Position numbers and translations under genes: made by a program
DNA from: a virus
Reading direction: 5' to 3' (one strand)
Length of the DNA: 36,747 nucleotides
Virus record (IMG/VR): IMGVR_UViG_3300009788_000207
Coordinates: 1-36,747 of that record
Notes under the pieces: model-generated
The model's input: only the letters and a program-made list of their open reading frames with translations
What the model was told of the DNA's origin: nothing
Databases searched by the model: none
Part shown: positions 2,820 through 36,747 of the stretch, piece after piece
Layout of the letters: the number at the start of each line of letters is the position of its first letter
Numbering within the stretch: position 1 is the stretch's first letter

Positions 2820-4658
2820 ATGGACCATATGGGAAACGTAAAAACAAATTCCGGCACATTCACTCTGAGGCCACATGGGGGCGGCGTCTGGGGGAGCGCC
2901 GATCCACCGCCTGAACCACCACCGGCTGGGGCTTTGATGACCGCAGACACCCAGGTGGATTGGGGTGATTTGCCAGCACCGTACAATACCATGCAGGGTG
3001 TGAGGGTTCTGGCCCTCCACCAGTGCCTGCAGGGCGGCGAAACCTCAATCGAGGTCGATACAAATACCACAGTTTATTATGCCCACGATGACACTAATGG
3101 TGAGAAGCCCGCTTGGTTGACAGGCGGAGCAGGCTGGACTGATACCACCGATACATTTACCCCTTCTGACGGTGTGCTGCGCGAGATTTGGCAGAGATCG
3201 TTTACCGCTAATGTTCAATACGATATAACTTGGGCTCATTCTGATTACGAGAAGCGCGGATCTTATTTGCTTGGCGGGTTTATTGTTCCCAACGCGATAG
3301 GGCTCACTCTAAGGCCAGCTCTGTACGAAGTTATTGATCTTTCCTCCTACACTGATCCGGCTAATGATGCTATTTACTGGGCAGATGTTCCGGTTATCTC
3401 GGGCGAGACAGTGTATGCCACAGTAGCACTACTGAACACAGCTATTGCCTCTGCCAGTGACGGTGACGTACTAACCCTTGCTAGTGGCACTCATAGTGGA
3501 AATATTCTTATATCGGGCCGTACAGGCGTCACAGTAGCAGCAGACACCTTTGGTAGTGTGAATTTTAATGGGCAGGTTCAGTTTATTGGTGCCAATAACT
3601 GTATTCTTACAGGCTTTACATTTCCAACGACGAATAGTACCCAATTTAAAGTTGATATGGATGAGGCTTCTCAATTCAATCGAATAACAAATAATCATTT
3701 TGATGGGTGTGATATTGCCGATGGCACGGTTCAAGACTTATGGATACGCTGTGAAGGAAAATATAACCGTCTTGACCATAACACAATGGAGGATCGGTCT
3801 GGAGAAGCGGCATTTATTGGAATGTATGCAACATCTGGAACATCGTTCATGAATCGGGCAGATCATAATCATATACGTGATCAACACGCTCATGTTGTAA
3901 GCGGTAATGTTGGTGAGACATTGCGCGCGGGGAATAACTCGGACAATGATGAGTTCTCTGCGTGTTTGATCGACCATAACCTCACAGAAGATATTAATAC
4001 AGCACAGTCAGCTGGTGGCGTACATGTAACCAACACCAAATCAGATCGTCATATATATTGGTCTAACAAATACACCAATAGCACCGGAGAACTTGTTCTT
4101 CGTAGGGCAGCGGGCTGTTTTTGTCTTGCAAACCAATTTTACGGAGGCGCAAACGATGACTCTGGGGGATTTAGGATCAATGGTTCTGCTAATGGCGGTG
4201 ATCATGTATTAGCACTAAATTATTTTGATGGACTAAATAGCTCAGAAGCTACTAACCGGCCTATGTTTGACTCAAGAGAGAGTAATGAGACTAGTTATTA
4301 CGCATCTACAAATTGCCTGTTTGTTGGGAATATAGGACGTAATTGTGGTTTAGGTCTTTCATATCGTACAGACTCTACAAACCCCATAACTAACCACAGT
4401 CATTTTGGGGATGCTTTCGATTGTACTCTAGGCATCAACGATGAAATCTCAGCTATTGGAGCAATTACCTTTACTGGTGTTGTAATGAATACACCGATAG
4501 GTATATCAACGCCAGCTGGAATAACGGCGGCTGACCCATTACTGGTTGATAGAGGCGATGGCATTTTCGAGCCAACTCATGCAGACATAGACTTTGGAAT
4601 AAATACACAGTGGCCAGCAGGCATTGAGGCTTCATTTTCAACAGGGAAGACTTGGTAA
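2820..4658 (+). CDS. Tail-spike polysaccharide lyase, PL6-like (alginate lyase / chondroitinase B fold)
   Basis: A 612-residue protein. The N-terminus has a Pro-rich linker at about 29-35 and a beta-rich region to about 190, probably for virion attachment or carbohydrate contact. From about 195 it follows the PL6 right-handed beta-helix pattern: ALLNTAIASASDGDVLTLAS, then NRITNNHF at 287-294, YNRLDHNTME at 315-324, GETLRAG at 365-371, NTKS at 405-408 and LRR at 427-429. Lys407 and Arg428 are 21 residues apart, as are catalytic Lys250 and Arg271 of chondroitinase B. The acidic calcium ligands expected 7 and 5 residues before the Lys are Gly400 and His402. It would depolymerise an acidic host polysaccharide. 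The start is uncertain: ATG 2829 is an alternative, and neither start has a strong ribosome site. Confidence 0.8.
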   Translation: MDHMGNVKTNSGTFTLRPHGGGVWGSADPPPEPPPAGALMTADTQVDWGDLPAPYNTMQGVRVLALHQCLQGGETSIEVDTNTTVYYAHDDTNGEKPAWLTGGAGWTDTTDTFTPSDGVLREIWQRSFTANVQYDITWAHSDYEKRGSYLLGGFIVPNAIGLTLRPALYEVIDLSSYTDPANDAIYWADVPVISGETVYATVALLNTAIASASDGDVLTLASGTHSGNILISGRTGVTVAADTFGSVNFNGQVQFIGANNCILTGFTFPTTNSTQFKVDMDEASQFNRITNNHFDGCDIADGTVQDLWIRCEGKYNRLDHNTMEDRSGEAAFIGMYATSGTSFMNRADHNHIRDQHAHVVSGNVGETLRAGNNSDNDEFSACLIDHNLTEDINTAQSAGGVHVTNTKSDRHIYWSNKYTNSTGELVLRRAAGCFCLANQFYGGANDDSGGFRINGSANGGDHVLALNYFDGLNSSEATNRPMFDSRESNETSYYASTNCLFVGNIGRNCGLGLSYRTDSTNPITNHSHFGDAFDCTLGINDEISAIGAITFTGVVMNTPIGISTPAGITAADPLLVDRGDGIFEPTHADIDFGINTQWPAGIEASFSTGKTW

Positions 4659-5980
4659 TGGCGACTTTAGTTCCTGTAGATAACAATTTATACAAAGGTG
4701 TCACAACCGCCACATCTGTTTCCGCGACCATTACTGGTACTGGTTCAAATAAGCTGGTGGTCGTTGTCGTCCGAGGTCGGGCGGGAAGCGTTCAAACACT
4801 AACAGCAATGACCCTGGACGGGGTTTCTGGAACTGTACATTCAACGCTGAATATCGATGGTGGCGGTGTTGCTAGTTTTGGCGGTGTTGCTTACTTCGTT
4901 GATTCAGAAAACCCAGGAGCAGGTACATTTACCATAGATACTACGTGGTCAGGTACTCCTAACGATCTAGTCTTTGAAGTATACGAATACAGCGGAGCCT
5001 TGCAGGTTTCTCCGCTAAGCGCCGAAGCCACAGCTACAGATAGCGCGGTGGTCGATGGCGGGACTATCGATGTTACGCTGGCCAGTCAGTCAGGCGAGCT
5101 TGCCATTGTCTATTGCTCATCAGCAGACACCGTTACAGCTGGTGCTGGTGGTGGGCATACGGTTGATGCCGATGCCACGCTACTTGACGAAGACTTTAAT
5201 TTGCGTACGCGCGCAGGCTTTGCTAATGATCTGGTAGTAGCTTCAGCTTCCGTCACTTACACATGGACCGTGAGCAGTGATGGCACAGAAACGATAGATA
5301 ATGTGGTAGCTGGTGCCTTTGCTGTCTTTGCTGCTGCTGGTCCTTCATTGACTGGACCAGATTCCGGCACACAAGAAGCCACCACACAGGCTGCTGGCTC
5401 TGATCTTGATACGGTAACCACCTTTAGTTTAATTACGACTGCTGGCGGCTTTGCGAAGGTCCAGAGCGACTATTCAGACAGCACCTTCCAATACACCGCA
5501 GAATCTGGAGAGGCTGAGCTGCGAGCTGCTGCATTCACTCCGGTGGCCGGTTGTCCTATGACCGCGACGATTGCCGCTACCGGAACCACGGCGTGGCAAG
5601 TGCAGCAAAAGGCTGATGATGGCGTAGATTTCGATACACGGAATATCACGCTCAATGTAGCATCAGGATTCGATGTTATCCAAACCATGATCTCCGAGGC
5701 GAACACCACACCAGGGGAATCTGTTTTAGGTACAGATATTGTAGGTGTGGAGGACAACCACCAGTTTGTAGCACCGGATAATACTGATGGGGCCACTATT
5801 ACATGGGCCGATGATGGGACATTTACAATTGATGATAATGGTATTCATACCGTAGAAATATTATACTTATCGCCCTCAACCAAGCAGTGGAGCAAATTTG
5901 AGCTGACCATGCAGACATCTAGCGTCATTGGTGTATCCAGCGTTTACGCGCCCTATACCCGACTTCACGTACACAGATAG
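4658..5980 (+). CDS. Tail fibre/appendage protein with shared C-terminal motif, 440 aa
   Basis: ATG at 4658 overlaps the lyase stop (TAATG). The protein is rich in Thr, Ser, Gly, Ala and Val, with repeated beta-strand patterns. Residues 1-225 look like one jelly-roll-type domain and about 230-420 like Ig-like or beta-sandwich modules. It ends exactly with GVSSVYAPYTRLHVHR, a motif also found at the end of the 473-residue protein and inside the 75-residue protein downstream. It has no cysteine-rich or enzymatic motif. Position and composition indicate an extracellular virion appendage, perhaps an adaptor or carbohydrate-binding fibre. It terminates with TAG, and a second in-frame TAG follows six codons later. 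Confidence 0.7.
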   Translation: MATLVPVDNNLYKGVTTATSVSATITGTGSNKLVVVVVRGRAGSVQTLTAMTLDGVSGTVHSTLNIDGGGVASFGGVAYFVDSENPGAGTFTIDTTWSGTPNDLVFEVYEYSGALQVSPLSAEATATDSAVVDGGTIDVTLASQSGELAIVYCSSADTVTAGAGGGHTVDADATLLDEDFNLRTRAGFANDLVVASASVTYTWTVSSDGTETIDNVVAGAFAVFAAAGPSLTGPDSGTQEATTQAAGSDLDTVTTFSLITTAGGFAKVQSDYSDSTFQYTAESGEAELRAAAFTPVAGCPMTATIAATGTTAWQVQQKADDGVDFDTRNITLNVASGFDVIQTMISEANTTPGESVLGTDIVGVEDNHQFVAPDNTDGATITWADDGTFTIDDNGIHTVEILYLSPSTKQWSKFELTMQTSSVIGVSSVYAPYTRLHVHR

Positions 5981-6001: not shown

Positions 6002-7219
6002 ATGGGAATATTAACAATTAAAGCATCTATAGATGGGGTAATGCATGGGTCTGCACCGACAGGCGACCATTCACCTATCTGGTCGCAGACAGTAGAGAAT
6101 TTTGATGCGGGGCATTACGTAATGAACCCTCAAATATCTGCACCTGATCCGCAGCGCTGGTTAGCGGCTTCAAGGGACATGCACTCTACATCTACTCAAG
6201 CCTTAGATGCTGACACTGTTAAATCAACAGGTGTTAATAGCCTTAAAGCTTCTTGTGATTCTTTTGTTGAAAATATAAAAAGCGATGCGCATATAGGAAG
6301 AATATGGTTTAACGCAAATGATAGGTCAGAGGCAACGGACATAGAGTATTTTCAACATCAATATACTCAGTATGCACGAGACGGAAGTACCGAAGGAACT
6401 GATTCGCACTGGTTAAATAATTATTATAATAGAATTCGTTTATGGGTTAAGGTATCCACTAATATTGAATTCCCTGCCTATCCTTCTTGGCAACAAATGG
6501 ATATAGGAACATATGTAAGGGCTACATGGGGAGATTACTCTCAGCAAGAAGAGGGAGGGTGGCACTATTACTTTCTTTATAATTTCGGAAGTACAGAACA
6601 GTGGCACCAGATTATTATTGATGGTGCGCCACAAGTTATAAGAGAAGCGGGCGCTCATCCTGATATATCGCCTATTATGTCAGGCACTACAGCGGTGGGA
6701 GGTGAGTTTTTAGGTGATGACTGGGAGTCCGGAGTTAATTATTTTGATCAACTTACCTCCTTTTATATAAGCTATGGTATGCGAGATTCCGATGATCATG
6801 ATGTGGAGAGCTGGATTAAACTGGATGAAATTGAATTTTACAAAGAACCTTATGATGAGATTGAACCCGAGAAAGTTTCATCGTTAAATGGCGTTTATGA
6901 TCCATCGGTAAATAGACTGTATGTTGCGTGGGTAGGGAATAGGTTAATCACTCCTGAAGATACCAGCGTACATGAGGCCGTATATTCCTTCAACAATATC
7001 CATGAAAACGGCTGGAGTAGCGGGATAAGTTTAGGGACTATGCCAGATGTAGCACATAAAGACAAAAGGGTAGACCGAACAGATATAGATATGGGATCTA
7101 ACGATATTATATATATAGCCGCCAGACCTGTTGGAGAGACATTATTCAGACAGATTTCAATTCCTCTTACACAAACAGGGTATGATCTTGTTGTTGACGA
7201 GAAGAGAGATTTTACGTGA
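6002..7219 (+). CDS. Tail appendage protein, probable beta-sandwich carbohydrate binder, 405 aa
   Basis: ATG at 6002 lies 21 bp after the previous stop, in the same frame as that gene. The product is rich in Trp, Tyr, Asp and Asn. It contains aromatic strand segments such as RIRLWVKVSTNIEFPAYPSW and WHYYFLYNFGSTEQWHQIII, typical of jelly-roll lectin-like folds that bind glycans. The last 120 residues (NGVYDPSVNRLYVAWVGNRL onward) resemble a beta-propeller or strand-rich module. No catalytic motif recognised. The GTGA overlap with the next gene indicates coupled translation. Probably part of the receptor-binding apparatus. Confidence 0.6.
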   Translation: MGILTIKASIDGVMHGSAPTGDHSPIWSQTVENFDAGHYVMNPQISAPDPQRWLAASRDMHSTSTQALDADTVKSTGVNSLKASCDSFVENIKSDAHIGRIWFNANDRSEATDIEYFQHQYTQYARDGSTEGTDSHWLNNYYNRIRLWVKVSTNIEFPAYPSWQQMDIGTYVRATWGDYSQQEEGGWHYYFLYNFGSTEQWHQIIIDGAPQVIREAGAHPDISPIMSGTTAVGGEFLGDDWESGVNYFDQLTSFYISYGMRDSDDHDVESWIKLDEIEFYKEPYDEIEPEKVSSLNGVYDPSVNRLYVAWVGNRLITPEDTSVHEAVYSFNNIHENGWSSGISLGTMPDVAHKDKRVDRTDIDMGSNDIIYIAARPVGETLFRQISIPLTQTGYDLVVDEKRDFT

Positions 7220-8637
7220 CAGTTAGAACAGTAGGATCTGGCAAAGATCACTCCACCATTCAAGATGCAGTAGATTGGTTTATCACAAATCAAAGTGACT
7301 TTACAGGCCTTGGTATTCAGTATATCGATGTATATAATAATTTAACTTTATCAGCAAATATTAATCTGTCGGGACTGACCACCACATCCAGTGATTATTT
7401 AATGCTGCGTGCTTTTAATGATGCAGAATTGTCATTGCTTGAGACACTAACATTAAATGCGAGTGGGTATAGGTTTAATGGTTTAGATGGATTTGTTGTA
7501 AAAGTAATCACAGGTTTTAATGGAGGGGCGACGAGAGCTGTTGGCTCAGACTACGGGTTAAAGTTTCATAATTGCTCACTGAATAATGAAGTAGGAGCGA
7601 GCGTTAACGGAATACAAGGTAGTTCAGGAGCGGGAGCTACCGATCTTGATAACTTCTTAGTAATAGGTTTTAACGGAACTAATAAGTACGGTGTAACTGC
7701 TGGCGATGCTTCCATAGCTAATATGACGGTATATGACTGTACGAGGGGTCATGCAAATTCATCAGGAGGAACCGTTATTGACTCTGTTGTATTAGACAGT
7801 TCTGCGCTTGATTTTTACGGAACACCAGCAGGAATTAGTTATTGTGGCTCATCAGATACAACAGCGATAGGTACTGGCTCTTTAAATAATTTAGTGTCTA
7901 CTGATGAGTACACTGATCCAGCTAATGGAGATTTTAGTCTTAAGGTTGGAAATAATATTGAAACTGCGTCCTCTACGGGTGGAGTCATAGGGTATGAAGC
8001 TCCTTCACCCATGCACCCTGGCGTAATTACCAGCATAGGGGGGGATGACTCTGTATATCCTGGCGAAACGGGTGTTGCAATAGTTGCCTCTGGTTTTGAC
8101 GCTTCTCCGACGACTCAAATAGTTACTTTATCGGACGGAATAAACACAGAAAATTTAACTATAACGAATTGGAATTCAGGGCAGCCGATAGTAACAGCGC
8201 CTCTTGATATTGATTTATTATGGGGATCTACAGCACTTGAATTAAAGATTACTGATGATCAAGGCACTGCTATATTTGGTTCCTCGGTGACACTGGCTGT
8301 GCTTGCTGGGTGGGGCATTATTAATTTTGCGGGATCTATACCCGACCCAAATACTACAGAATCATTTTCTGAGATGGCTTTATCAGACTTCGGATTGACT
8401 GTGGCGGCAGGGGACAAAATAACCTTAACAACAGATTTTGCGCTATCTGTAGATAGTCAATGGATACCAACCGTAAATCCCTCACAAACCATTGTAGGGA
8501 ACTATAAAGTATGGGATGATTCCGACAACACCTACACGACTATCGCTGAGTATACGATACAAGAAGGAGAGGAGGTTTCCGTATCAGGTGTGGCCAATAT
8601 TTATGCGCCCTATACGAAACTTCACGCACACAGATAA
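7216..8637 (+). CDS. Tail spike-like protein: beta-helix plus Ig-like region, shared C-terminal motif, 473 aa
   Basis: GTG start at 7216, overlapping the previous TGA. The first 20 residues include GKDHSTIQDAVDWF, the usual opening of pectate-lyase-like beta-helices, and residues to about 260 show short repeated strands with Asn/Gly turns. Residues about 265-375 (VITSIGGDDSVYPGETGVAI onward) look like an IPT/TIG-type Ig domain, followed by another beta domain. The end is GVANIYAPYTKLHAHR then TAA, paralleling the 440-residue protein. The coil pattern suggests a spike or branched receptor-binding protein. Catalytic residues cannot be assigned. Confidence 0.65.
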   Translation: MTVRTVGSGKDHSTIQDAVDWFITNQSDFTGLGIQYIDVYNNLTLSANINLSGLTTTSSDYLMLRAFNDAELSLLETLTLNASGYRFNGLDGFVVKVITGFNGGATRAVGSDYGLKFHNCSLNNEVGASVNGIQGSSGAGATDLDNFLVIGFNGTNKYGVTAGDASIANMTVYDCTRGHANSSGGTVIDSVVLDSSALDFYGTPAGISYCGSSDTTAIGTGSLNNLVSTDEYTDPANGDFSLKVGNNIETASSTGGVIGYEAPSPMHPGVITSIGGDDSVYPGETGVAIVASGFDASPTTQIVTLSDGINTENLTITNWNSGQPIVTAPLDIDLLWGSTALELKITDDQGTAIFGSSVTLAVLAGWGIINFAGSIPDPNTTESFSEMALSDFGLTVAAGDKITLTTDFALSVDSQWIPTVNPSQTIVGNYKVWDDSDNTYTTIAEYTIQEGEEVSVSGVANIYAPYTKLHAHR

Positions 8638-13167: not shown

Positions 13168-13400
13168 GCAAAGAAAAACTGATTGCAGAGCTTCGAATAT
13201 CTGCTGATGACAACACTAATAGATTGACGCATAAAGCGGTTGATCTGGTAGAAAGACTAATAAACCAAGAGGTGTCTGCGAAGGTTGAGGAATCCCCAGC
13301 TTATCGCGCCCCAGAAGTGAAGGACGATTACTTACTAGGATGCGCCGTACTGGGCCTTGCACTGATTATTTTGTTTGAGAGGGTATTGCCATGGCTTTAA
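13164..13400 (+). CDS. Small protein with C-terminal membrane anchor, 78 aa
   Basis: ATG at 13164 overlaps the fibre stop (ATGA). Residues 1-52 are charged and helical (KLIAELRISADDNTNRLTHK). Residues about 56-75 (LLGCAVLGLALIILFERVLP) form a hydrophobic helix near the C-terminus. This tail-anchored topology is seen in some phage holin-like and virion proteins. The position between fibre and head genes favours an accessory virion role, but a lysis role cannot be excluded. It overlaps the next start by 10 bp. Confidence 0.6.
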   Translation: MSKEKLIAELRISADDNTNRLTHKAVDLVERLINQEVSAKVEESPAYRAPEVKDDYLLGCAVLGLALIILFERVLPWL

Positions 13401-13618
13401 CCCGTTTAGGCTCACACGGCGTACCTCTGGGCGTTGGTGGCGACTTTACAGGGAAAGAGGAAGCAGCCCCTGCCCCAGCTACCGGCGTACAGGGTATTTA
13501 CGCCCCAATTACCAGATTACACGCGCACCGAAGAGAGATTTTTGGCAAGTCTGTGAAAGATTTTATTTATGCAAGTTTAGTATATAATGGCTGGAAGCCG
13601 GCCTACCAAGAGGATTAA
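13391..13618 (+). CDS. Small protein carrying the YAP-T-LH-HR motif, 75 aa
   Basis: ATG at 13391 lies within the end of the upstream gene. The N-terminus (MALTRLGSHGVPLGVGGDFT) is Gly-rich, followed by a short Ala/Pro linker and GVQGIYAPITRLHAHR at residues 32-47. That motif is shared with the ends of two tail proteins at 5980 and 8637. Here 28 residues follow (REIFGKSVKDFIYASLVYNG onward), so the motif is internal. A short connector or docking protein for tail appendages is a reasonable inference. No homologous family with known function is recognised. Confidence 0.6.
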   Translation: MALTRLGSHGVPLGVGGDFTGKEEAAPAPATGVQGIYAPITRLHAHRREIFGKSVKDFIYASLVYNGWKPAYQED

Positions 13619-14156: not shown

Positions 14157-16448
14157 GTGGCTGGATCTGACAAGCAAATTCTCGACGCTCCTTCTGCTGA
14201 TGACTTTGATGACGACAAGCAGGACGAACAAGAGGCCGAACAGCTGGAAATGCTGGATAAGCTTGGCATGTCGCTATCCAAGAATCGAACCGAGGCTATC
14301 ACCTACCGACAGAACTCAGGGATCGAGCGGGAGTGGATGGAGGACCGAGAGCATTACGAAGGGATTGATGATACTAACAGGGGAGAGTTGGGAGATTGGG
14401 AATCAAAACCTCTTGGCCAAGGGGCACTACAGGATGGCGAAGGTGTTGGGTCTACCGTATTTTTCAATATAACCCGCCCTTACTGTGACACTGCTTCCGC
14501 ACGAGTAGGAGATATGTTACTCCCAACTGATGACAAAGGTTGGGCTATAGAGCCTACACCCATTCCAGACCTTATCGCTATCGCTGATGGCAAGATCCCT
14601 ACCAAAATACAGCAACAAATTGAAGCCCAGGTTCCCCAAGATAAGCTCGCCGCTACTATTAAGGAAATCATCGCTGATCAGCAAATGATTCTAGACGAAG
14701 CGAAATCACAAGCAGATCGGGCAGAGAAGCGCATTAATGACTGGCATACAGAGTGTCAATATAACGCTGAAATGCGGGTAGTGATTGAAGATTGCAGCCA
14801 GATTGGTACGGGTGTTATGAAAGGCCCGATACCCGAGAACAAAAAACATCTTGCCTTTTTTAATAACCAAATGGTAATGAAGGATGAATTGCAACCTATA
14901 TCGCGCAGGGTTCAAGTTCAGAACTGTTATCCAGATCCTTCCTGTGGGCAGAACATTCAGAATGGTGCTTTCCACTTTGAAAAAGACGATATTAGTGAGA
15001 GAGCGCTCCACGACTTACGGAATCAAGAGGGTTATTATCCCGAACAGATTGAACGGTGTTTAAAAGAAGGATCACACAAAGCTGTTAGGGCCGCTGTCGA
15101 AACCCCGAACGTTGACCGTGGTGATCAGGTCGGATTGGTTCGCAGGGATAAAACCAAGCTGTATGAAATATGGTATGTGTACGCCAGACTACGGCGCACA
15201 GACTTGGAGGCCGCTGGTGTTGAGATAGATACTGAGGGACCGGAGATCACCGACATCGATGTTTACCTTGTCATGGTTAATAACAGGGTTATCAAAGCTG
15301 CCAACAATCATTTGAGCACTGGTGAATTTCCATACGATTATATGGTATGGCAGGCAAGAGCGGGGCTACCTTACGGCATTGGTATCTCTCGCCAAGTACG
15401 AGTCCCACAGCGGATTATAAACGGTGGTGGACGTAACCTTATGGACAATGCCGGAATGGCTGGTGGGCCTATGTGGGCGTTCAACCAGGGCATTCTTGAG
15501 CCGGTTGATGGGGTTTATGAGATAGCTCCCAGGAAAGGATGGTTTGTCAGCGAGGACGCAACTGCGCCAGAAGATATTGCCAAGGCGTTTAGCTTTATTG
15601 AATTCCCAATGCTGCAGGAGGATCTGCAAGCTATTATTAAGCTGGGAATGAGTTTTGCGGAATACATTTCAGGGTTACCTAGTTTGCTGCAAGGGCAAGA
15701 ACAGGGTAATGAAGAGACGTTGGGCGGCCAGCAGATGCGCCGGAACGATGGCAGCACAGTATTGCGCCGTATTGCCAGACACTATGACGACAGGATCACA
15801 ACACCGCATCTGCGCAGATATTATGATTATCTGTTGATGTACGGTAATGATGATGAGAAGGGTGATTTTGTTGTCAAGGCTCGTGGTTCATCAGCCCTGG
15901 TTGAGCGAGACATTCAGAACGAGTCTATTGCGCAGCTAGGCAGCCTGGTTACTAATCCAATTTACGGGAAAGATCCTAAGAAGTGGATGAACGAATACAT
16001 GAAGTCACAGCGACTTGATCCCAAAAACTTCGATTATGAAGATGATGAGTGGAAACAGTTGGTTGAGCAAATGTCAGCACCTCCTGCAGATAGCTCAGTA
16101 CAGGTTGCACAGCTTAAGATTGATTTCGAGACATTCAAGCTGCAAAGCAATCAGCAGCTTGAGGCAGGTAAGATAGCCAACGAGAACGAGCAGAAAGAGA
16201 GGGATCGAGAATTAGAGGTTCTTCTGACCAGTTCTAAAGAGCAGTTGGCACTTGTTGTTGCTGAGATGGAGCACCTTGGCACTAAAGATGTGAATTTAGA
16301 TAATATCAAGGCTCATTTAACTGAGGTTATAATCACGCTCGAAGCACAGATGCAATTGTCGGGTGACGATGGCAAAGGTCCAGAGGTCGCAAAGCCGGCC
16401 CTGGAACCTGAAGGTCGCGCCGCCGATGATAAATCGTTCCAAGAATAG
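14157..16448 (+). CDS. Portal protein, 763 aa
   Basis: The GTG start at 14157 lies two bases after the upstream stop. The large acidic protein has the portal pattern of N4/P22-type podoviruses: an N-terminal helical region (YRQNSGIEREWMEDREHYEG), long wing helices at about 170-205, a core with VQNCYPDPSC, and INGGGRNLMDNAGMAGGPMW before the stem. After about residue 620 a Gln/Glu-rich coiled-coil crown follows. Twelve copies would form the ring at the capsid vertex through which DNA passes. The size fits large podoviral portals. The gene ends in TAG, with a ribosome site for the next gene directly after it. Confidence 0.9.
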   Translation: MAGSDKQILDAPSADDFDDDKQDEQEAEQLEMLDKLGMSLSKNRTEAITYRQNSGIEREWMEDREHYEGIDDTNRGELGDWESKPLGQGALQDGEGVGSTVFFNITRPYCDTASARVGDMLLPTDDKGWAIEPTPIPDLIAIADGKIPTKIQQQIEAQVPQDKLAATIKEIIADQQMILDEAKSQADRAEKRINDWHTECQYNAEMRVVIEDCSQIGTGVMKGPIPENKKHLAFFNNQMVMKDELQPISRRVQVQNCYPDPSCGQNIQNGAFHFEKDDISERALHDLRNQEGYYPEQIERCLKEGSHKAVRAAVETPNVDRGDQVGLVRRDKTKLYEIWYVYARLRRTDLEAAGVEIDTEGPEITDIDVYLVMVNNRVIKAANNHLSTGEFPYDYMVWQARAGLPYGIGISRQVRVPQRIINGGGRNLMDNAGMAGGPMWAFNQGILEPVDGVYEIAPRKGWFVSEDATAPEDIAKAFSFIEFPMLQEDLQAIIKLGMSFAEYISGLPSLLQGQEQGNEETLGGQQMRRNDGSTVLRRIARHYDDRITTPHLRRYYDYLLMYGNDDEKGDFVVKARGSSALVERDIQNESIAQLGSLVTNPIYGKDPKKWMNEYMKSQRLDPKNFDYEDDEWKQLVEQMSAPPADSSVQVAQLKIDFETFKLQSNQQLEAGKIANENEQKERDRELEVLLTSSKEQLALVVAEMEHLGTKDVNLDNIKAHLTEVIITLEAQMQLSGDDGKGPEVAKPALEPEGRAADDKSFQE

Positions 16449-18450: not shown

Positions 18451-18480
18451 GTTTTAATTATGGATAATTGGAGTTAAATC

Positions 18481-19521
18481 ATGTCCATTCAAAATTTCGG
18501 CACAGAGGCCGCCCGAATTGGTAAGCTTAAAGGTGAGATCCTTAAGCATGCCATTCCTCGTGAAGTATTGGGCATTACTGGCGACCAGCACAAGATGGGT
18601 AAGAACCAGTCGGATACGGTTATTTACCGGCGCTGGCTTCCCTTTGGTGGTGCCACAACCAATGCCACAACTATTAACCAATGGGTAGTGGACCCCAATG
18701 CACACCTGACTTCAGAGGGTGTAACCCCTGAAGCGGATACCATTGCACCACAGGATATTACCGTTAAGCTTCGCCAGTACTCTTGCTTGTATCAGTATTC
18801 AGACAAGACTGCCGATCTTTACGAAGATAACATTCCTGCGGCCATGAAGAAGCAGACTGGCGAGCGCATGGGCTTGGTTCGTGAACTGATTCGCTACGGC
18901 GCACTAAAAGGTGGAACTAACAAGTTCTACGCTGGTGGTACAACTCGACTGACTGTTGACGAGACTATTGGTATTCCTTTGCTGCGGGCCATTACTCGTA
19001 GTATCAGCGGCAATCGTGGCAACATGATTACCCAGATTCTGGCACCTTCTCGCAACTATAACACCGCACCAGTGGAAGCTGGTTATCTGGTCTTCTTTCA
19101 TACTGATGTGGAAAATGATATTCGGGAGCTTCCTGGGTTCAAAGAAACATCCGAGTATGGCCAGCGTAAAGTCATGCATCCTCTGGAGCTTGGTTCTACC
19201 GACCGATATCGCTTTATTATTTCACCTGAATTGGGTCCAATCATAGACTCCGGCGCATCCGTAACAGGAACCGGCTTGGTATCTACTGGTAGTTCCCTGG
19301 TGGATGTCTATCCTGTTGTTGTCGTAGCGGAAGACGCCTGGGGTGATGTTGCTCTGCGTGGTATGTAGTCTTTTGATACCACTCACATTCCGCACACCGC
19401 GAAAGACAAGAGCGATCCCATGGGCCAACGTGGTTATATTGGCGCTAAATTCTGGTCTGCTTCCTTCATTCAGAACGATGGGTGGATGGCAGTGCTGGAA
19501 TGTGGCGTAACAGCCCTGTAA
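18481..19521 (+). CDS. Major capsid protein, N4-gp56-like, interrupted by an in-frame amber codon
   Basis: ATG at 18481 has GGAG at 18470-18473. The frame runs 295 codons to TAG (19366-19368), then continues without another stop for 50 codons to TAA at 19519-19521. Before the TAG the protein has the N4-gp56 major capsid pattern, with DAWGDVALRGM at the break. After it come SDPMGQRGYIGAKFWSASFI and NDGWMAVLECG, the usual end of this family, in which the conserved part is SDP.GQRG..G.K and ND.W. The full 346-codon length suits the family. The TAG therefore truncates an essential capsid domain unless it is read through or suppressed; it lies one change from CAG (Gln) or AAG (Lys). A 73-bp internal segment is duplicated near 2.7 kb. 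Confidence 0.9.
18748..18820 (+). repeat. Major capsid gene segment duplicated upstream (copy 2)
   Basis: This part of the capsid gene, from about codon 90 to codon 113, aligns with 2668-2740 in the Tat-leader chimera. The encoded segment includes QDITVKLRQYSCLYQYSDKT, with five substitutions over about 27 residues counted by eye. Confidence 0.85.
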
Positions 19522-19527
19522 ATAGTT

Positions 19528-19548
19528 AAGGCTCTTCGGAGCCTTTTG
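19528..19548 (+). terminator. Rho-independent terminator after the capsid gene
   Basis: AAGGCTC (19528-19534), a TTCG loop, then GAGCCTT (19539-19545) running into TTGT. The seven-bp stem with a UUCG tetraloop and short T run is a standard terminator or mRNA 3'-end stabiliser. It lies after the TAA at 19521, not after the amber codon, which supports 19521 as the real gene end. Confidence 0.8.
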
Positions 19549-21476: not shown

Positions 21477-22187
21477 ATGTCTAACTTCCTAGAACTTTGC
21501 CAGAGAACAGCGCGAGAAGCTGGGATTGCTGGCATTGGTCCTTCTACTACCCTTGGTCAAACTGGTGAACTCGCCAACGTCGTTCGGTGGGTCCAGAGTG
21601 CTTACAGGGAGATTCAAAACAGGCATGGGGGCCACTGGCGTTTCCTTCGCCATGGATTTACTCTTGACACGGTTGCTGACACTGATACCTATGCCTTCAC
21701 TGCCGCTACAGACTCGACAACCGCTTCCGCCATTACACGCTTTTCATCATGGCGCTTTCAAGACAGGATTAAACCGCCAACCATCTTTCTGACCTCTGCA
21801 GGTTCCGGCACACAGACATGGATGATATTTGCCAAATGGGAGCCGTTTGGGCAGATCTACCAATTCAGCAATCAAATACCAGCCTATCCCGCGCACATCA
21901 CTATTAAGTTCACCGATGAAATTGTACTGGGTCCAATCCCTAACGACATTTATACGGTTACCGGAGAGTACTGGAGATCCGCACAAGAGCTGGCCGCTGA
22001 TGACGAAGTTCCTGAGATGCCAATACAGTTCCATGATCTTATCGTTTGGTATGCTATTGAGCATTATGGTTATAATGAGGCCGCAGCAGAATCCTTGGCT
22101 CATGCTGAAGTAATGCAGAGAAAATATATGCGACAGCTTGAGGCCAATCAGATTGAGCGATTCGGCAGGGCAAGGCCGTTAGCGTGA
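21477..22187 (+). CDS. Head-to-tail adaptor (SU10 adaptor / tail tubular A type), 236 aa
   Basis: ATG at 21477. The N-terminus MSNFLELCQRTAREAGIAGI with GPSTTLGQTGELANVVRWVQ matches the adaptor family of SU10-like and related podoviruses, in which (F)LELC.R...E.GI.G.GP...GQTGE...V.WV..A is followed by W.FL. The rest has a beta region and C-terminal helices (FHDLIVWYAIEHYGYNEAAA). Twelve copies bind the portal and receive the nozzle. The order adaptor then nozzle supports the call. Its stop overlaps the next GTG. Confidence 0.85.
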   Translation: MSNFLELCQRTAREAGIAGIGPSTTLGQTGELANVVRWVQSAYREIQNRHGGHWRFLRHGFTLDTVADTDTYAFTAATDSTTASAITRFSSWRFQDRIKPPTIFLTSAGSGTQTWMIFAKWEPFGQIYQFSNQIPAYPAHITIKFTDEIVLGPIPNDIYTVTGEYWRSAQELAADDEVPEMPIQFHDLIVWYAIEHYGYNEAAAESLAHAEVMQRKYMRQLEANQIERFGRARPLA

Positions 22188-24277
22188 GCATGTTTGGTGG
22201 TAGAAAAACAAAATTTAAATTACCTGTTCTAAGGACTGGGTTTATCCCTTTTGCTGGAGGTCTGGATACTGAGACTACCCGATGGAAGGTTCCGCCAGGA
22301 AGAGTTATTTCGTCCCAGAATTACAAGATAGGCATCAATAATGGTTATGGTGATATTACTGGATACGAGCGTTCTGATGGCCAGCCAAAACCTTCTGCCG
22401 GAATATACTCCATACTGAACGTTACCATTACTGGTGAGTTCTCTGTAGATGACACAATCACGCAGTTGGTATCAGGTGCAACAGGTGTTGTCCTTGCCGT
22501 AGTTACGACTGGCACTCCTGATTACTTGGTAATCACAAAAGTCACTGGAACGTTTAATGATTCCGACGATCTGCAGGTAGCAGCGGCCACTGAGGGAAGT
22601 GCGCTGTCTGTTGCTATTCCTGGGGGTGGGAACACCGCAGAGCTGGATGCTATTTATACCAATCTGGCCGCTGACGAATATCGCAGTGATATCGCTGCAG
22701 TGCCAGGGTCCGGTGATGTTTATGGAATCCACAGGCTTAATGACATTGATTATGCCTTTCGGCCAAATGCTGGCAATACGGAAACCGATATTTACAAGTC
22801 ATCTGCAAGTGGTTGGGTTCAAGTTGCTTTAAATTCCGTTGTTTCTTTCACGACAGGTAGCGATGCCGGTGGTGATCCTGCTGATAATGAAGTGCTTACA
22901 GTGGGGGCCAATACCGCAACAGTGCTTCGATTTGTGACCGAGAGCGGGACATGGCTTGGGGGTGATGCCGCAGGGCGCATGGTTATTACTGCCGGATCTC
23001 CAGCGTCCATTGCCGCTGCTGCAGGTACATTGTCTGGTGGTGGAACCTGTACGGTGAGTGTGGCAGAGGCCGCGATCACTTTATCCCCTGGTGGCCGGTA
23101 TGAGTTTGATATCGAACAGTTTGGGGGTGAAGCCGGAGCAAAGCGCATTTATGGCTGTGATGGAGTGAATAACGGATTCGAGTTTGACGGAACGGTTTAT
23201 GTCCCTATTGTTACTGGGATGACTACAGATACACCTACTCACGTAGTAGTTCATAAAAACCATTTGTTCTTTTCATTCGAGGGATCGGCGCAACACTCGG
23301 GGATTAATACACCTTATATCTGGAGTCCAATTTTTGGTGCCGCAGAACTGGCCACTGGTGATACGATCACTGGATTTATGTCAGAGCCTGGGCGGGAAGA
23401 TGTCGGGGCACTGGGTATTTACAACCGGAACACAACACATATTCTGTACGGGACCAGCTCTTCTGATTGGAATTTGGTCCGGTATCGCGACGAGGTAGGT
23501 GCTTTTGAGCATACTATCCAGCAGATCGGGCAGACCATGTTTCAGGATGATCGTGGGATTACCAACTTTCACACAGTTCAGGCGTATGGTAACTTTCAAC
23601 ATGCTACTATGACTCGGGACATACAGAGTGATTTTGATGGCAAAAAGACACTGGCCACCGCCTCATGTGTTTCTCGGGATAAAAACCAGTACAGGGTTTT
23701 CTATACCGACAAATCAGCTTATTACATCACTATGGATGGTCGAAAAATCAAAGGGATAATGCCGATAGCTCTCGGGCATCAGGTGACATCCATTTACTCT
23801 TTGGAAGCGAACGATGGAAGCGAAGTTATTAAATTTGGTTGTGATGATGGATTTGTGTATGAGATGGAGAAAGGCACCTCGTTTGATGGCGATGCTTATG
23901 AGGGATTTATGTTCCTGCACTACGTTTTCTTCACCGCTATACGCTGGATTAAGAAGTTCAAGGGCATTGTCTTTGAGGTTGAGGGCAATGGGTACGCTGA
24001 ATTTGATTTCGGCTATGACCTTGGATATGGCTCCAGTGACATCCCGCAGCCAGGGAGCACAACAAATGCTGTGGAATTCTCTGATTCCCGATGGGACATT
24101 TCCACCTGGGATGCGTTTATTTGGGACGGACAGACATTGGCCCCTAAGACCAACAAGCTCAACGGAAGTGCAGAGAATATTGCGCTGGTTATTACACGAA
24201 ACTCGGATTATTTTGTACCTATAAAAATCTCGGGCGCAATGATAAGATATACACTAAGGCGATTGCTAAGAGAGTAG
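22184..24277 (+). CDS. Tail nozzle protein (tail tubular B-like), 697 aa
   Basis: GTG at 22184 overlaps the adaptor stop (GTGA); ATG at 22190 is an alternative two residues in. The N-terminal region has FIPFAGGLDTETTRWKVPPG and NYKIGINNGYGDITGYER, the usual opening of phage nozzle-type proteins, in which a GG(L/I)D and P(P/A)G motif precedes N.E...G.Y....GYER. The remainder is beta-rich with a propeller-like set of strands (KRIYGCDGVNNGFEFDGTVY and later DDRGITNFHTVQAYGNFQHA). It would form the conical tail end that opens on infection. The gene ends in TAG. Confidence 0.8.
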   Translation: MSMFGGRKTKFKLPVLRTGFIPFAGGLDTETTRWKVPPGRVISSQNYKIGINNGYGDITGYERSDGQPKPSAGIYSILNVTITGEFSVDDTITQLVSGATGVVLAVVTTGTPDYLVITKVTGTFNDSDDLQVAAATEGSALSVAIPGGGNTAELDAIYTNLAADEYRSDIAAVPGSGDVYGIHRLNDIDYAFRPNAGNTETDIYKSSASGWVQVALNSVVSFTTGSDAGGDPADNEVLTVGANTATVLRFVTESGTWLGGDAAGRMVITAGSPASIAAAAGTLSGGGTCTVSVAEAAITLSPGGRYEFDIEQFGGEAGAKRIYGCDGVNNGFEFDGTVYVPIVTGMTTDTPTHVVVHKNHLFFSFEGSAQHSGINTPYIWSPIFGAAELATGDTITGFMSEPGREDVGALGIYNRNTTHILYGTSSSDWNLVRYRDEVGAFEHTIQQIGQTMFQDDRGITNFHTVQAYGNFQHATMTRDIQSDFDGKKTLATASCVSRDKNQYRVFYTDKSAYYITMDGRKIKGIMPIALGHQVTSIYSLEANDGSEVIKFGCDDGFVYEMEKGTSFDGDAYEGFMFLHYVFFTAIRWIKKFKGIVFEVEGNGYAEFDFGYDLGYGSSDIPQPGSTTNAVEFSDSRWDISTWDAFIWDGQTLAPKTNKLNGSAENIALVITRNSDYFVPIKISGAMIRYTLRRLLRE

Positions 24278-28302: not shown

Positions 28303-28980
28303 TTAAGTGATAATTCTCTTTTTACCTCTTGCTATCATGGATATAGTCGAAGGATTTACAGAGAACAGTTTAGCTATTGCTGTTTGAGTCATGGTTTTTT
28401 TCATTTCATGAATTTTCCTAATATCGTCGTCGCTCAGCTTGGCAAAATGATGGGATTCGCCTTTGGTGCAATTGCTTCGTCCTTTAGCGATCTTGTCCTG
28501 CATGTTGTCTTTGGGAGTTCCAAGAAAGAGATGACTTGGGTTGACGCATGGAGGATTATCGCACAGATGAAGAACAAATATACCCTCTGGGATTTCCCCC
28601 TTGTGGATAAGGTAAGAAAACCTATGAGCGCCAATAGTCTTTTGATTGACCCAGAAAGATCCATATCCATTATCAAATTGACCGCCGGTCCAGAGCCAGC
28701 ACCCTTCAGACTTGTTAACATGAAAAAGAAATCTATCTTTGTCTGTCATATCCCTCGTTGGATTAACGGTGCGCTTGCTACATTGTCGTTGATAGTGCTT
28801 ATTGCAGAGTCCTTTCGAGAAGGCTGGGGACGAACACTTGCTACAGGCTTTTCCTTTATTAACCTCAAAAAGATGCCTTGGTATGGATTTTACAGTTCTT
28901 TTTCGGTAATCTCTATTGTAGCATTTTTGACACATACCCTTGGAGTATATGTTTTGAGATCCACATTCAATACAATGCAT
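28303..28980 (-). CDS. HNH endonuclease, free-standing homing type, 225 aa
   Basis: This is the only convincing minus-strand gene. The start is the ATG ending at 28980, with AAGGGA about 8 bases upstream. Two zinc knuckles lie at the N-terminus (Cys3, Cys6, Cys17, Cys20; and Cys46, Cys49, Cys59, His62). The HNH core lies at about 118-162 (HRFSYLIHKGEIPEG, LHLCDNPPCVNPSHLFLGT) with His138, Asn147 and His150. A C-terminal helix-turn-helix segment at about 181-222 (LSDDDIRKIHEMKKTMTQTA) probably reads the target site. Such enzymes cut intron-less or rival phage alleles and spread by repair. It carries its own promoter and interrupts the + strand operon. Confidence 0.92.
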   Translation of the reverse strand: MHCIECGSQNIYSKGMCQKCYNRDYRKRTVKSIPRHLFEVNKGKACSKCSSPAFSKGLCNKHYQRQCSKRTVNPTRDMTDKDRFLFHVNKSEGCWLWTGGQFDNGYGSFWVNQKTIGAHRFSYLIHKGEIPEGIFVLHLCDNPPCVNPSHLFLGTPKDNMQDKIAKGRSNCTKGESHHFAKLSDDDIRKIHEMKKTMTQTAIAKLFSVNPSTISMIARGKKRIIT

Positions 28981-30942: not shown

Positions 30943-33900
30943 ATGGCGCGGGATTTATTCGCTACTGGTCGAGACTTATTTGCTGAAGAAGAGCCTAGAG
31001 ATCTTTTAGCGCAGGCCGAGCCCGTAGAAGAAGAAAAAGGATACTTCGGAAATACTTTTCGTCGCATTGGCGAAAGAGCTACCGAGCTTGGTGGACAGAT
31101 TGTATCAGGGATCGATGTGGCAGCCAAGGCTGCTGAAGAAGCCTTTCCATTAGGTGGTTTTACTTTTGAAAAAGGGTCCATTCTACCCACCTACAGAAAA
31201 CCAGAAGAGTTCAAAGCACTCGCAGAACAGGGATTACCAAACCTTGTAGCCGAGAGTGGTGAGCGTCTAAAAGGAATGGATTTCGGCTCTACCCCTACTC
31301 ACACATGGGACGAGGTAAAGCGACACTTCTCCGAAGAGGGTGCTGTTAGCGGCATGGGCGAAGTGCTCAAGTATGCTGGAGAAACTGGCGCAGCATCTAT
31401 TCCAGATATGGTATTCGCAGTATTGAATCTTCCTGGGTATGTTCTCGCGAGGTCTTCGGAAATTGGCGAGACAAGAGCTGCTAACAAAGGGAAGCCTGAA
31501 ACTGATTTGGTTGACATAATGGAAGCGGCCCCCTTTGCTTTAGGGTCTGCTATCTTGGAACGAGTCGGTGGTAGAGGTATTGCCGACGCATACTCTGAAG
31601 CTGCAGAACTTATAGGACAAGGCGCGCTCAAAGTCATTGCTAAAAAAGCAGGGAAGGCAGCGGCGAAAGAGGCGGGCACTGAATTTGTACAAGAAGGCAT
31701 TATTGAATATGTAGGGGAGAAGTTTGGTACTGAAGCTGAAATGAATCTTGCCGAGGCAATGGAAAGAGGCGTTGCCGGTGCTGTTGCTGGTGGTATTTAT
31801 GGTGGTGCAGCAGCTGGCAGTATTGCTACTGTAAGTAATCCAGAGAAGAAAATAGAAGCAGCGCTGCAAGCTGAGATAGATGCCGCTGAATTCATCACCC
31901 CCGCCGAAGAAGTAGCTCGCAAAGCCTTTGATGTAGATCAGACTATTGCTGACACGGTTTCCAGTATTAATCAGGCCCAATCGGTTGATGAGGCAGTCGA
32001 TATCGCAACCCAAATATTAAGCAAGGATATCGAAGGACTGACTGTCACACCTATCAGTGAGATGACAACTAACGAATTGCTGAATGCTCAGCCTCAAGAA
32101 GATTTGGCTATTGCAGAAGAGCCGGTGGCTCCAGTAGAGGAAGTTGCTCCTGTTTTGCCGGTAACTGAAATTCCTGCAGAACCTGATAAGGTTACAGGCA
32201 GGGATTTATTAGCGGATGAACCTATTACACCAGAAGCTGTCACTGTGCAGCCGGAGGAAGAACGTGCCGAAATCGAAATACCACCCCAAGAAAAAGTCGC
32301 CGCCGAAAAAGAGGAAGAGATCCCTGTACGAGATGGCCCTGCAGAAATCACCAAAGGGGAGCAAGTATTAGCTGACGCTGAAATCAAAAAACTTCAACGA
32401 GCAAAAGAAACTACTGAGCGGTACGCACAAAAGACCAAGGTTAATGAAACTGAGGATTCTTTGTTGACTGCTGCCGCGAAGCTTGGTGGATTAAATATCG
32501 ATGCATGGGTTGCAGAAGGTGTTGACCCAGAAGTAATGAAGGACCGAGCATTAAACAACAAGGTATTTGGTCGTCCTGCATTTCGCCGCAAAGGTGGTAT
32601 GACTCCAGATGATGTTGCGGAAATAGCAAATCAGTACGGATATGGGCAGGATCTTACTGCCAATGAAGCACTAGACCTGATAATGAATGAGATAGCGGGT
32701 GAGGCTTCATATACTCCCGCTGGCATTGAAAACCAGTTAGAACGCGAAGCATTGCAACAGCAGGAAGATGAAGCTGTACAGGCTCTGGATTACATCCCTA
32801 CGGAGTACGAATCATTTACTGAGGGGATGAGCCCAGAGCAAGAAAGGTCATTCCATGCAGCAGCAAGTATGGAGATCGACCCATACCAATACACTGATTT
32901 TGAAGAAGCCGACAAAGCAATAGGAGATTCTTATGACAATTTCGTACGAGGAATGGCAAAAGAGGGTGAAGCAGACGCAGGATTTGCGCTCCAGCGAGAA
33001 ACAGAAAGCGAACGCGAACAAAGGGAAGCAGCCGAATCCCAAGAAATAAAGGCCAAGAAAGATGTCGAAAAAGCTGTACAGGATAAGGCACAGGCCGACG
33101 AAGATGCGAAGGACTTTGTGCTTACCGGATCGGAGCGTACTGCTGATGTTGCGGCGGCGCGTGGACAAGAGGATATATTTGGGGCGAAGGCGAAAAAGGT
33201 AAAAAAAGCCACAGAGCCCATCGAAAAATACAATATTGAGCAAGAAGGAGAAACTTATGACAGAGAAAAGGCAGTCATACAACAACTTGATATATTTGAA
33301 GACGCAGGGGGTGGGGACTTACTCGCCGCCGCCAATCTATCATCCGAAGAAAGAATACAGCAAGCAAAAGACAATGCTCGACTTCTCGTCAAAAACGTCA
33401 AAAAAGAAGACATCCTGCACGGAGTAGATGTTGTAAACTATTCAGACGATGCGGCGCATCTGCTGGCACCAATAAGACGAGGGGCACAAGAGGCGTTTTA
33501 TGTGCTTGTGTTAGATAAGGACAAAAAGCCCATCTCAGTAATAGACCACTCCAAGGGAGGCGTTGATGCGGCTTCCGTTTATTACGGCACAGTAGCCTCA
33601 GCCATTGCTGATACAGAGGGAGGTGAAAGCGTATGGCTTGCACACAATCACCCTTCTGGCGCCGCAAAACCCTCTGAGGCTGATTATAATTTGACCGAAA
33701 AACTAACGGACAGCATTGAAAGTCTTGGCATAACAGTTGCCGGTCATATCGTGTTTGGTGAGGGTAGACAGGCATTCGGCTTTAAGGACAGAACAAAAGG
33801 GAGTGAAATAAAAATTGAGCCCAAGGTGAGAAAATTATCAACACCTGTTACTCATAGGGAGATAAGGCGCAGAAGAGGTGGTACTGTCGATCAGTTAACA

Positions 33901-36747
33901 AGCCCTAATGCGGCAAGAGCAATAATTGGCAAGGTAGAGGCCAAGGATGCAGTCGTACTTTTAAACGCTCAACACGAAGTTATCACATCTGTCTCGCTGA
34001 CAGCGGAAGAGATGTCGGTGTTAAAAAAGGATGGCGTGGCAAAAAGACTAGCAGGATTGATAAGTGCAACTAACGCCTCTGCAATGATAATTAAAACAGA
34101 AAAAGAAAGTTTCACTTCTAGTAAAAACATGGCCACCTTCGCCAACAAAGTAGACGTTAGACTTCTCGATTATTTCTATGGAAGTGATGCTGAAATTATT
34201 AGCGATGCGGAAAGGGGTGGTTTAAATATTGAGCCGAGCGAGATCTTGTTCGGCCTCGATAACGCGCTTCAAGCCGACAAGAAAACAGATTTTAGTTTAG
34301 GGGATACCCTTAAAGCAGTGAAGCCAACACTTGATAAGGTGAGTAGTAAAATTGGCGTAGCTGTTAGAATCATCAACTCCAAAGATATTCCTAACAGAGT
34401 GAAAGAAAAAATACCAAAAGGTAAACGACCAAAAGGCTTTGCTTATGGCAACAAGGTTTATCTAGTACACGATCATTTGTCCAGCGGAACTGATGCACAG
34501 GTAACGCTCGCACACGAACTAAAAGGGCATGTGGGTGTTAACAATATTATTGAAAACTGGGACAAGGTAGAAAGCCTTTATGATGGCTTGGCCGAAAGGG
34601 GCGGGAAGACTTTTACTTCAATATTGAAGTCTGTCAATGAGCGCAATCCAGATGCCGACAAATTAACACAAATCAAAGAATTTATCGCCATCGCCGCAGA
34701 GCGCAGGGAAACCGAAGGATCTATCGGTGCATTCATGCGGAAGGTTCGTGAGTTCCTGAAAAAATCCCTGAACGCACTGGGATTCAAGCCGATCAGTATG
34801 ACCAATATCGATTTGATACTTTCTCGGTCTGAGGCGTTTTTGGCTGGGGAAGAAGTTGCTGTGGCCGGTGAGGTGGAACCGCAGTTTAGCTTGGATGACG
34901 ATCAGGAAGTATTTAAAAAACTCGGGCTCTCTCCAAAGGAGTCCAAAACATTAAGCCAGACAGTTCAGGAGGTGATCAAAAACAACATTGCCCAAGCATT
35001 TACCCAAGGTAGAGAACGGGCTTTCGAGGGTATCTTTGATGGATTGACTGGACTTGATCGTGCTGAACGTGCGCTAGGGAAAGGCCGGACTGTCGGAGAC
35101 TATGAGAATTCTGGGTATGTGAGCGCAAGGCTAGCCACTGGCATTGCCGATACCATGCATGCAGTTATGCATTATGGTTCTCCAGAGTGGCGAGAGGGGG
35201 TGATCCAATATCAAAAGGGCTCCCGAGGTCTACTGGAAATATTCGGCGACCTCGGACCCGATTTAAATAACTGGCTGGGCTGGATGGCCGGTCATCGTGC
35301 GCAGGAGCTAATGAAAGAGGGACGCGAGAAGAATCTAACACAAAAAGATATCGACACATTGGTGGCACTTAGCGAGGGCAAAGAGGCCGCCTTTAAAGCA
35401 GCGAAAAAAGAATACAACTCATTTAATAAGGCAATGCTGGATCTATCTCAAGAGGCAGGTCTTGTCGATCCGGTGTCTCGGAACAAGTGGGAGAGTGAAT
35501 GGTACATTCCCTTCTATCGGCAGAGCGAGTCTGATAGTGGCGTAGCACTGCTTGGTCCCAGAACAACACGTGGACTATCCCACCAAACCAATGGTATTAA
35601 AGCCCTGAGAGGGGGAGAGACAGCCACCAATGATTTGATGGAAAATATTCTGTATAACTACCTTAAACTGACTGACAGTGCCATGAAAAATATGGCGCTT
35701 AACAAGGTTGTCGAAAATCTGGAGGGGACAGAATATCTTGATGATGAGTCTATGCACTGGACCCAGGTAACAGTGCCAAAATCCGAAGTTGCCAAGCGCA
35801 TAAAGAAAGATCGTGACTATGCCAAATGGTGGGCTGAGCAGCTGGGAATGGATGAGGCGGCCAAGAGCATGGATGTCATTAATGAAATTAACAAGCTCGA
35901 CAAGTCGGGTTATGAGCAGATGTGGACACAGGTTGCTCCAACTGACCCTGATATTATTCGCGTAAAGAAAGGTGGAAAATCATTCTTTTACCGAGTCAAT
36001 GATCCATCAGTTCTCCGCGCAGTCTCGCATATCGGCTTTACAGGTAACCAAGGAATTCTCATGAAGGGTGGCCGGTATTTCAAACGATTACTAACAACAG
36101 GTGTTACCACGGCACCAGACTTCATATTACGTAACTTTGTACGAGATGCGGCACACGCATGGGCAATCAACCCAGATAACTTTACGTTCGCTGTAGACTC
36201 GTTTAAGGGGCTTAAGAAGGCACTTGAAGAAGACGCGGATTATCGGGCGTTGATGTTTGCGGGTTCATCTTTCCAGGGGGGTTATGTCCACGGCACAGAT
36301 CCAGAGGCTGGCGCGCAAATGATTCGTCGCGCTCTGGACAAAAAAGGATTAAACCGGAAGGAAGCTGATGCATTTATGGATACTGTTGTCGATACTCCTG
36401 AAAAAATGTGGGAGATGGTCAAAAAGGGCTGGCAGCAATACCGCACTCTGGGCGACAAGGTAGAAAATTCTAATCGATTAGCTACCTTTACAGCTGCCAG
36501 AGATGCGGGGAAACCTATGGCCCAATCTGCATTTGAGGCCAAGGACTTGATGGATTATTCCCTGCGCGGGAACTGGACGGCGATGACTACTATTACTGAT
36601 CTGGTGCCCTTCCTGAATGCTCGATTGCAAGGGCTTAGTAAATTAGGGAGAGCTACACAGGACGACTGGAAATCTGTCACTATGGCAGCAGCAAAAATTG
36701 CCGCAGCATCTGTTGCTTTGGCTGCATGGAACGATGACGACGAACGA
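30943..36747 (+). CDS. Giant polyvalent virion protein with JAMM and HEXXGH motifs, partial (1935+ codons)
   Basis: ATG at 30943 opens a frame that stays open to the right edge (1935 codons). The N-terminus repeats RDLF/RDLLA; a hydrophobic Gly/Ala segment lies near 275-290; an acidic Pro/Glu region runs to about 470. A RadC/JAMM-like domain has HNHPSG with His901, His903 and Asp914 (H-x-H-x10-D). A second metal motif, HELKGH at 1191-1196 (HEXXGH), is followed by a Glu-rich helix IKEFIAIAAERRE. From about 1700, YFKRLLTTGVTTAPDFILRN resembles the LPD38-type domain of large polyvalent proteins. Such proteins are packaged and ejected with DNA. No in-frame TAG, TAA or TGA interrupts it. Confidence 0.85.
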   Translation, partial: MARDLFATGRDLFAEEEPRDLLAQAEPVEEEKGYFGNTFRRIGERATELGGQIVSGIDVAAKAAEEAFPLGGFTFEKGSILPTYRKPEEFKALAEQGLPNLVAESGERLKGMDFGSTPTHTWDEVKRHFSEEGAVSGMGEVLKYAGETGAASIPDMVFAVLNLPGYVLARSSEIGETRAANKGKPETDLVDIMEAAPFALGSAILERVGGRGIADAYSEAAELIGQGALKVIAKKAGKAAAKEAGTEFVQEGIIEYVGEKFGTEAEMNLAEAMERGVAGAVAGGIYGGAAAGSIATVSNPEKKIEAALQAEIDAAEFITPAEEVARKAFDVDQTIADTVSSINQAQSVDEAVDIATQILSKDIEGLTVTPISEMTTNELLNAQPQEDLAIAEEPVAPVEEVAPVLPVTEIPAEPDKVTGRDLLADEPITPEAVTVQPEEERAEIEIPPQEKVAAEKEEEIPVRDGPAEITKGEQVLADAEIKKLQRAKETTERYAQKTKVNETEDSLLTAAAKLGGLNIDAWVAEGVDPEVMKDRALNNKVFGRPAFRRKGGMTPDDVAEIANQYGYGQDLTANEALDLIMNEIAGEASYTPAGIENQLEREALQQQEDEAVQALDYIPTEYESFTEGMSPEQERSFHAAASMEIDPYQYTDFEEADKAIGDSYDNFVRGMAKEGEADAGFALQRETESEREQREAAESQEIKAKKDVEKAVQDKAQADEDAKDFVLTGSERTADVAAARGQEDIFGAKAKKVKKATEPIEKYNIEQEGETYDREKAVIQQLDIFEDAGGGDLLAAANLSSEERIQQAKDNARLLVKNVKKEDILHGVDVVNYSDDAAHLLAPIRRGAQEAFYVLVLDKDKKPISVIDHSKGGVDAASVYYGTVASAIADTEGGESVWLAHNHPSGAAKPSEADYNLTEKLTDSIESLGITVAGHIVFGEGRQAFGFKDRTKGSEIKIEPKVRKLSTPVTHREIRRRRGGTVDQLTSPNAARAIIGKVEAKDAVVLLNAQHEVITSVSLTAEEMSVLKKDGVAKRLAGLISATNASAMIIKTEKESFTSSKNMATFANKVDVRLLDYFYGSDAEIISDAERGGLNIEPSEILFGLDNALQADKKTDFSLGDTLKAVKPTLDKVSSKIGVAVRIINSKDIPNRVKEKIPKGKRPKGFAYGNKVYLVHDHLSSGTDAQVTLAHELKGHVGVNNIIENWDKVESLYDGLAERGGKTFTSILKSVNERNPDADKLTQIKEFIAIAAERRETEGSIGAFMRKVREFLKKSLNALGFKPISMTNIDLILSRSEAFLAGEEVAVAGEVEPQFSLDDDQEVFKKLGLSPKESKTLSQTVQEVIKNNIAQAFTQGRERAFEGIFDGLTGLDRAERALGKGRTVGDYENSGYVSARLATGIADTMHAVMHYGSPEWREGVIQYQKGSRGLLEIFGDLGPDLNNWLGWMAGHRAQELMKEGREKNLTQKDIDTLVALSEGKEAAFKAAKKEYNSFNKAMLDLSQEAGLVDPVSRNKWESEWYIPFYRQSESDSGVALLGPRTTRGLSHQTNGIKALRGGETATNDLMENILYNYLKLTDSAMKNMALNKVVENLEGTEYLDDESMHWTQVTVPKSEVAKRIKKDRDYAKWWAEQLGMDEAAKSMDVINEINKLDKSGYEQMWTQVAPTDPDIIRVKKGGKSFFYRVNDPSVLRAVSHIGFTGNQGILMKGGRYFKRLLTTGVTTAPDFILRNFVRDAAHAWAINPDNFTFAVDSFKGLKKALEEDADYRALMFAGSSFQGGYVHGTDPEAGAQMIRRALDKKGLNRKEADAFMDTVVDTPEKMWEMVKKGWQQYRTLGDKVENSNRLATFTAARDAGKPMAQSAFEAKDLMDYSLRGNWTAMTTITDLVPFLNARLQGLSKLGRATQDDWKSVTMAAAKIAAASVALAAWNDDDER

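Follow-up and report, generated by a model that had tools for sequence, protein, structure and literature searches.

The capsid gene and its interruption

Does the in-frame amber codon inside the major capsid gene of this virus act as a decoding signal, reflect an altered genetic code, or represent a nonsense change in an otherwise normal gene? We addressed this question in the window, the whole stretch of DNA that was analysed, which is the entire linear virus record IMGVR_UViG_3300009788_000207 (36,747 bases) and is probably a fragment of a genome. The capsid gene lies on the plus strand at 18481-19521 and comprises 346 codons plus a stop codon. It opens with an ATG at 18481, preceded on the same strand by a GGAG-like ribosome site (18469-18473), meets a TAG at codon 296 (19366-19368), and continues in frame for 50 sense codons (19369-19518) to a TAA at 19519-19521, the same end position as in homologues. 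This arrangement is exactly as reported in a preliminary description of the DNA. The terminator noted there was also visible in the sequence as a terminator-like plus-strand hairpin 3' of the TAA (GGCTC-TTCG-GAGCC followed by TTTT, about 19530-19547), although a consensus scan did not list it; in two relatives (L080 and L031) the capsid gene likewise has a hairpin 3' of it.

As that description had also stated, inspection of the sequence revealed no start codon with a ribosome site ahead of the 50-codon segment. Nothing resembling a Shine-Dalgarno sequence precedes the in-frame ATG at codon 314, whose methionine is not conserved among homologues, and a split capsid with a separately translated tail was rejected on these grounds. 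A frameshift, intron or insertion at the TAG was rejected because homologues align codon for codon across the site.

Identity of the capsid protein and contribution of the tail

The PHROG 1357 family (major head protein) matched the read-through protein over residues 12-343 (E 1.6e-45) and the truncated protein more weakly (4.7e-35). A profile from 29 sequences matched the solved capsid proteins of N4, Moo19, B2 and DEV (PDB profile E 3.5e-21), and capsid proteins of the same four phages were the best Foldseek matches of a predicted model of moderate confidence (mean pLDDT 70). No Pfam model matched the capsid protein at the 0.01 cut-off. Within the head-gene block, the portal gene (14157-16448) is followed by the capsid gene at 18481 and an SU10-type adaptor gene at 21477. 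By its profile matches, its predicted fold and its place in this block, the gene product is an N4-gp56-type HK97-fold major capsid protein.

At its C-terminal end the protein aligns with the ends of the solved chains of N4-gp56-family capsids (Escherichia phage N4, Moo19, B2 and DEV; PDB 9e99, 9lbz, 9d7z, 9d82 and 9bgn), but the window gene is shorter (346 codons versus about 400 residues) and carries an in-frame TAG found in no homologue. The same gene encodes the major capsid protein of Caudoviricetes sp. ctsTn925 (MW202426; 52% identity), which also shares the gene order of portal, small genes, capsid and adaptor, and those of Pseudoalteromonas phage vB_Pun_Y3 (34%) and Stenotrophomonas phage StenR_269 (31%). 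Unlike the gene in the window, all three are uninterrupted.

Codon 296 adjoins a low-confidence loop (residues 289-295) of the predicted model. Beyond it, the tail supplies predicted strands 301-308, 317-326 and 336-342, the last three of the fold, and its DP.GQRGY stretch aligns with DPYGETGF, close to the C terminus of the N4 protein. Homologues align with these codons one for one to the same end, which bears out the earlier claim that they encode the conserved end of the capsid. Without the last three strands, a 295-residue product would have an HK97-type fold cut short at its end and probably could not assemble. Rescue by a second capsid-like stretch at 2650-2814 was considered and rejected, since that stretch covers only capsid residues 84-138 and not the tail.

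Related capsid genes at codon 296

We next compared the site with related sequences. Codon 296 was spanned by 88 distinct contigs (85 from a viral collection, one GenBank phage and two genome-bin contigs), which are not independent of one another, some being near-identical between samples. None of the 88 carried a stop at this column or anywhere else in the aligned capsid gene, so the stop is, across these sequences, private to a single record. Homologues ending naturally at the position of the TAG, which the preliminary description had named as contrary evidence, were looked for among the same 88 and none was found. The nearest homologue, on a 9.4-kb contig from a metagenome bin (L030), was 86% identical over residues 1-346 and aligned without a gap across the TAG. 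A second sampling of the same virus was sought by searching the viral collection for the exact context of the site with any codon at 296, and there was no match; the searches may have excluded records very close to the window, so near-identical relatives, with the TAG or lacking it, may exist.

The residue in this column is variable and polar. It is mostly Asp or Asn, but Glu, Lys, Arg, Ser, Gln and Tyr also occur; the three closest relatives have Glu (L030 and L021) or Asp (L080), and Gln is found in only one relative. Of the options in the earlier description, a base-call or population variant is the one that the evidence favours, but not in its specific form of a CAG-to-TAG change.

Selection on the tail

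When the gene was compared with that of L030, dN was 0.076 after the TAG (codons 297-346) and 0.095 before it (codons 1-295), with synonymous sites saturated in both parts (pS 0.79 and 0.76, respectively). At columns invariant in four relatives, changes private to the window numbered 0 of 33 in the tail and 8 of 126 in codons 106-295. By these sequence comparisons the tail is under purifying selection and is conserved as well as the rest of the capsid, with no relaxation. An untranslated tail would have decayed over such divergence, and from this we infer that, barring suppression throughout its history, the TAG either arose very recently or is not real. The argument excludes a long-standing stop that goes unsuppressed; it is qualitative because it rests on saturated synonymous divergence.

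Use of TAG elsewhere in the window

TAG terminates five of the 39 listed open reading frames (ORFs) in the window. The terminal TAG of the portal gene coincides exactly with the ends of the portal genes of L030, L111, L015 and dozens of other relatives, which stop at TAG, TAA or TGA, and the ORF at 22184-24277 likewise ends in TAG at its homologous end. Since TAG stands at the homologous ends of these genes, it is, as judged from the alignments, a normal stop in the window. Reading TAG as a sense codon raised the coding fraction only from 88.2 to 89.4% and produced no other convincing joined gene, in keeping with the earlier observation that the remaining genes have no internal TAG and with the argument drawn from it against a global code change. 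For comparison, phages that use genetic code 15 gain about 20 points of coding when TAG is read as sense (PMC11210395). The crAss-like, Lak and phAss-1 phages of this kind resemble the window in having an in-frame TAG in a structural gene; they differ in having TAG in dozens of genes (41 TAG-containing ORFs in phAss-1; PMC10607447), often with a suppressor tRNA, although this tRNA is missing in about half of code-15 phages (PMC11210395). With TAG ending other genes, a single gene interrupted and little coding gained, recoding of the whole genome was rejected, and the recoded-host option of the preliminary description fell with it.

A tRNA search of the window, itself a fragment, found none. 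When 19 relative records were searched whole, three contained tRNAs (Pro, Arg and His in one; Leu and Met in another; Tyr in the third), none with a CUA anticodon. Thus the proposed check for such a tRNA gave no positive sign of suppression. Pyrrolysine decoding was rejected because no pyrrolysyl-tRNA synthetase was found above the cut-off in three genomes holding relatives, genomes that may not represent the host of this virus.

Other features of the window and its relatives

Several further features were recorded. A 67-codon ORF at 2560-2763, preceded by a strong ribosome site, encodes a twin-arginine-like leader, MKRRSFIKGLLATLG, and continues in frame into an 81-base copy (about 2660-2740) of the window's own capsid gene (18740-18820; 87.7% identical). 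Over the longer matches, no capsid gene of a relative exceeds about 75% identity, and the copy therefore probably originated in the lineage of the window. A similar ORF with a Tat-like leader lies directly after the portal gene in L030 (3732-4193) and contains DKDDPLGQRTTIG, which resembles the capsid tail motif KDKNDPLGQRGYIG; at the DNA level this resemblance is weakly supported (19 of 26 bases), and a search for relatives of this ORF found none.

A near-identical motif (YAPYTRLHVHR, YAPYTKLHAHR, YAPITRLHAHR, YAPVTRLHTYR) occurs in different ORFs, at 4652-5980, 7216-8637 and 13391-13618 in the window and at 626-895 in L030. The first two ORFs end with it, whereas in the other two it is internal. 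Perhaps it is a shared docking tag of virion proteins.

An HNH endonuclease gene (28303-28980) is encoded on the minus strand, opposite in orientation to its neighbours, and overlaps a probably spurious plus-strand ORF of 250 codons. From 30943 to 36747, a frame that runs off the contig stays open for at least 1935 codons and has a RadC-like JAB domain at residues 835-950. The relatives L080 and L111 are parts of one 63.7-kb record (IMGVR_UViG_3300032132_000006) that carries tRNA-Tyr(GUA) and has capsid and portal genes on opposite strands about 34 kb apart, reflecting either an inversion or a chimeric assembly.

Origin of the amber codon

As the codon is tolerant, the stop private, the use of TAG elsewhere ordinary and the tail intact, a lone nonsense substitution is the most economical account. 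We estimate a probability of about 0.84 that the TAG is one isolated substitution of this kind in an otherwise normal HK97-fold capsid gene of an N4-gp56-like tailed phage, present either as a consensus error or as a very recent allele. The substitution would have fallen in a loop codon at which relatives carry many different polar residues. It may be an error in sequencing or in the assembled consensus. Alternatively, it may be a genuine and very recent allele that could not make capsid alone, as would be the case if the gene copy had only just died or the genome were a minority or defective one; such a genome would be carried by intact siblings or would persist as a non-producing prophage. 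The sequence comparisons do not support a functional decoding feature, and a conserved decoding signal is not what the TAG is. Three observations run counter to this account: every other gene looks intact, with no general assembly decay; a site that tolerates many residues is also what a suppressible site would be expected to look like; and the record is a linear fragment, so that a suppressor tRNA could be encoded in the part that is missing.

The last two observations bear on amber suppression, in which a tRNA(CUA) from the unsequenced part of the phage or from the host would insert a residue at codon 296 and yield full-length capsid. Selection on the tail equal to that on the rest of the capsid is compatible with this account, and a relative with 80% identity has in its record a tRNA-Tyr(GUA), whose anticodon is one base from CUA. 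We nevertheless consider suppression unlikely: no CUA tRNA was seen in the window or the relative records, no pyrrolysyl-tRNA synthetase was seen in the genomes searched, recoded phages have dozens of TAG-containing ORFs and not one, and suppression would extend the portal and other proteins whose genes truly end at TAG. In a related scenario, which we judge to be very unlikely, a standard-code phage would keep a single amber codon in its capsid gene and make full-length capsid only where the codon is suppressed, whether the suppressor is a phage tRNA from the unsequenced part of the genome or is supplied by the host; capsid output would then depend on decoding.

A defective prophage, that is, an element in a bacterial chromosome whose capsid gene has just been inactivated, would be a special case of the lone nonsense substitution with the allele real and fixed in its carrier. 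One relative (L031/L016) comes from Marinobacterium litorale DSM 23545, an isolate in which it lies on a contig of 84 kb, so the group of relatives probably includes prophages. For the window itself this origin is quite unlikely, as neither a host flank nor an integrase was recognised there and all other ORFs across the 36.7 kb look intact, including the one of 1935 codons.

Programmed read-through, in which a fixed fraction of ribosomes would pass the TAG to give short and long capsid forms, had been another suggestion of the preliminary description. The frame is open and conserved beyond the TAG, and a stop codon inside a longer coat-protein frame recalls the A1 read-through protein of phage Q-beta. 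In Q-beta the short coat form is complete and the A1 extension is additional, whereas here the shorter product would be missing the three final strands. The RNA 3' of the TAG folded no better than shuffled sequences (z = +0.64) and had no Rfam match, and the base directly after the TAG is U, a good context for termination. With the stop conserved in none of the 88 relatives as well, we regard programmed read-through as extremely improbable.

The lone nonsense substitution, our preferred reading, carries a caution: a lone in-frame stop in an essential gene assembled from a metagenome, with relatives that do not have it and with the same codon ending other genes, is not evidence of recoding. If suppression were nonetheless true, it would amount to a notable single-codon switch on capsid production.
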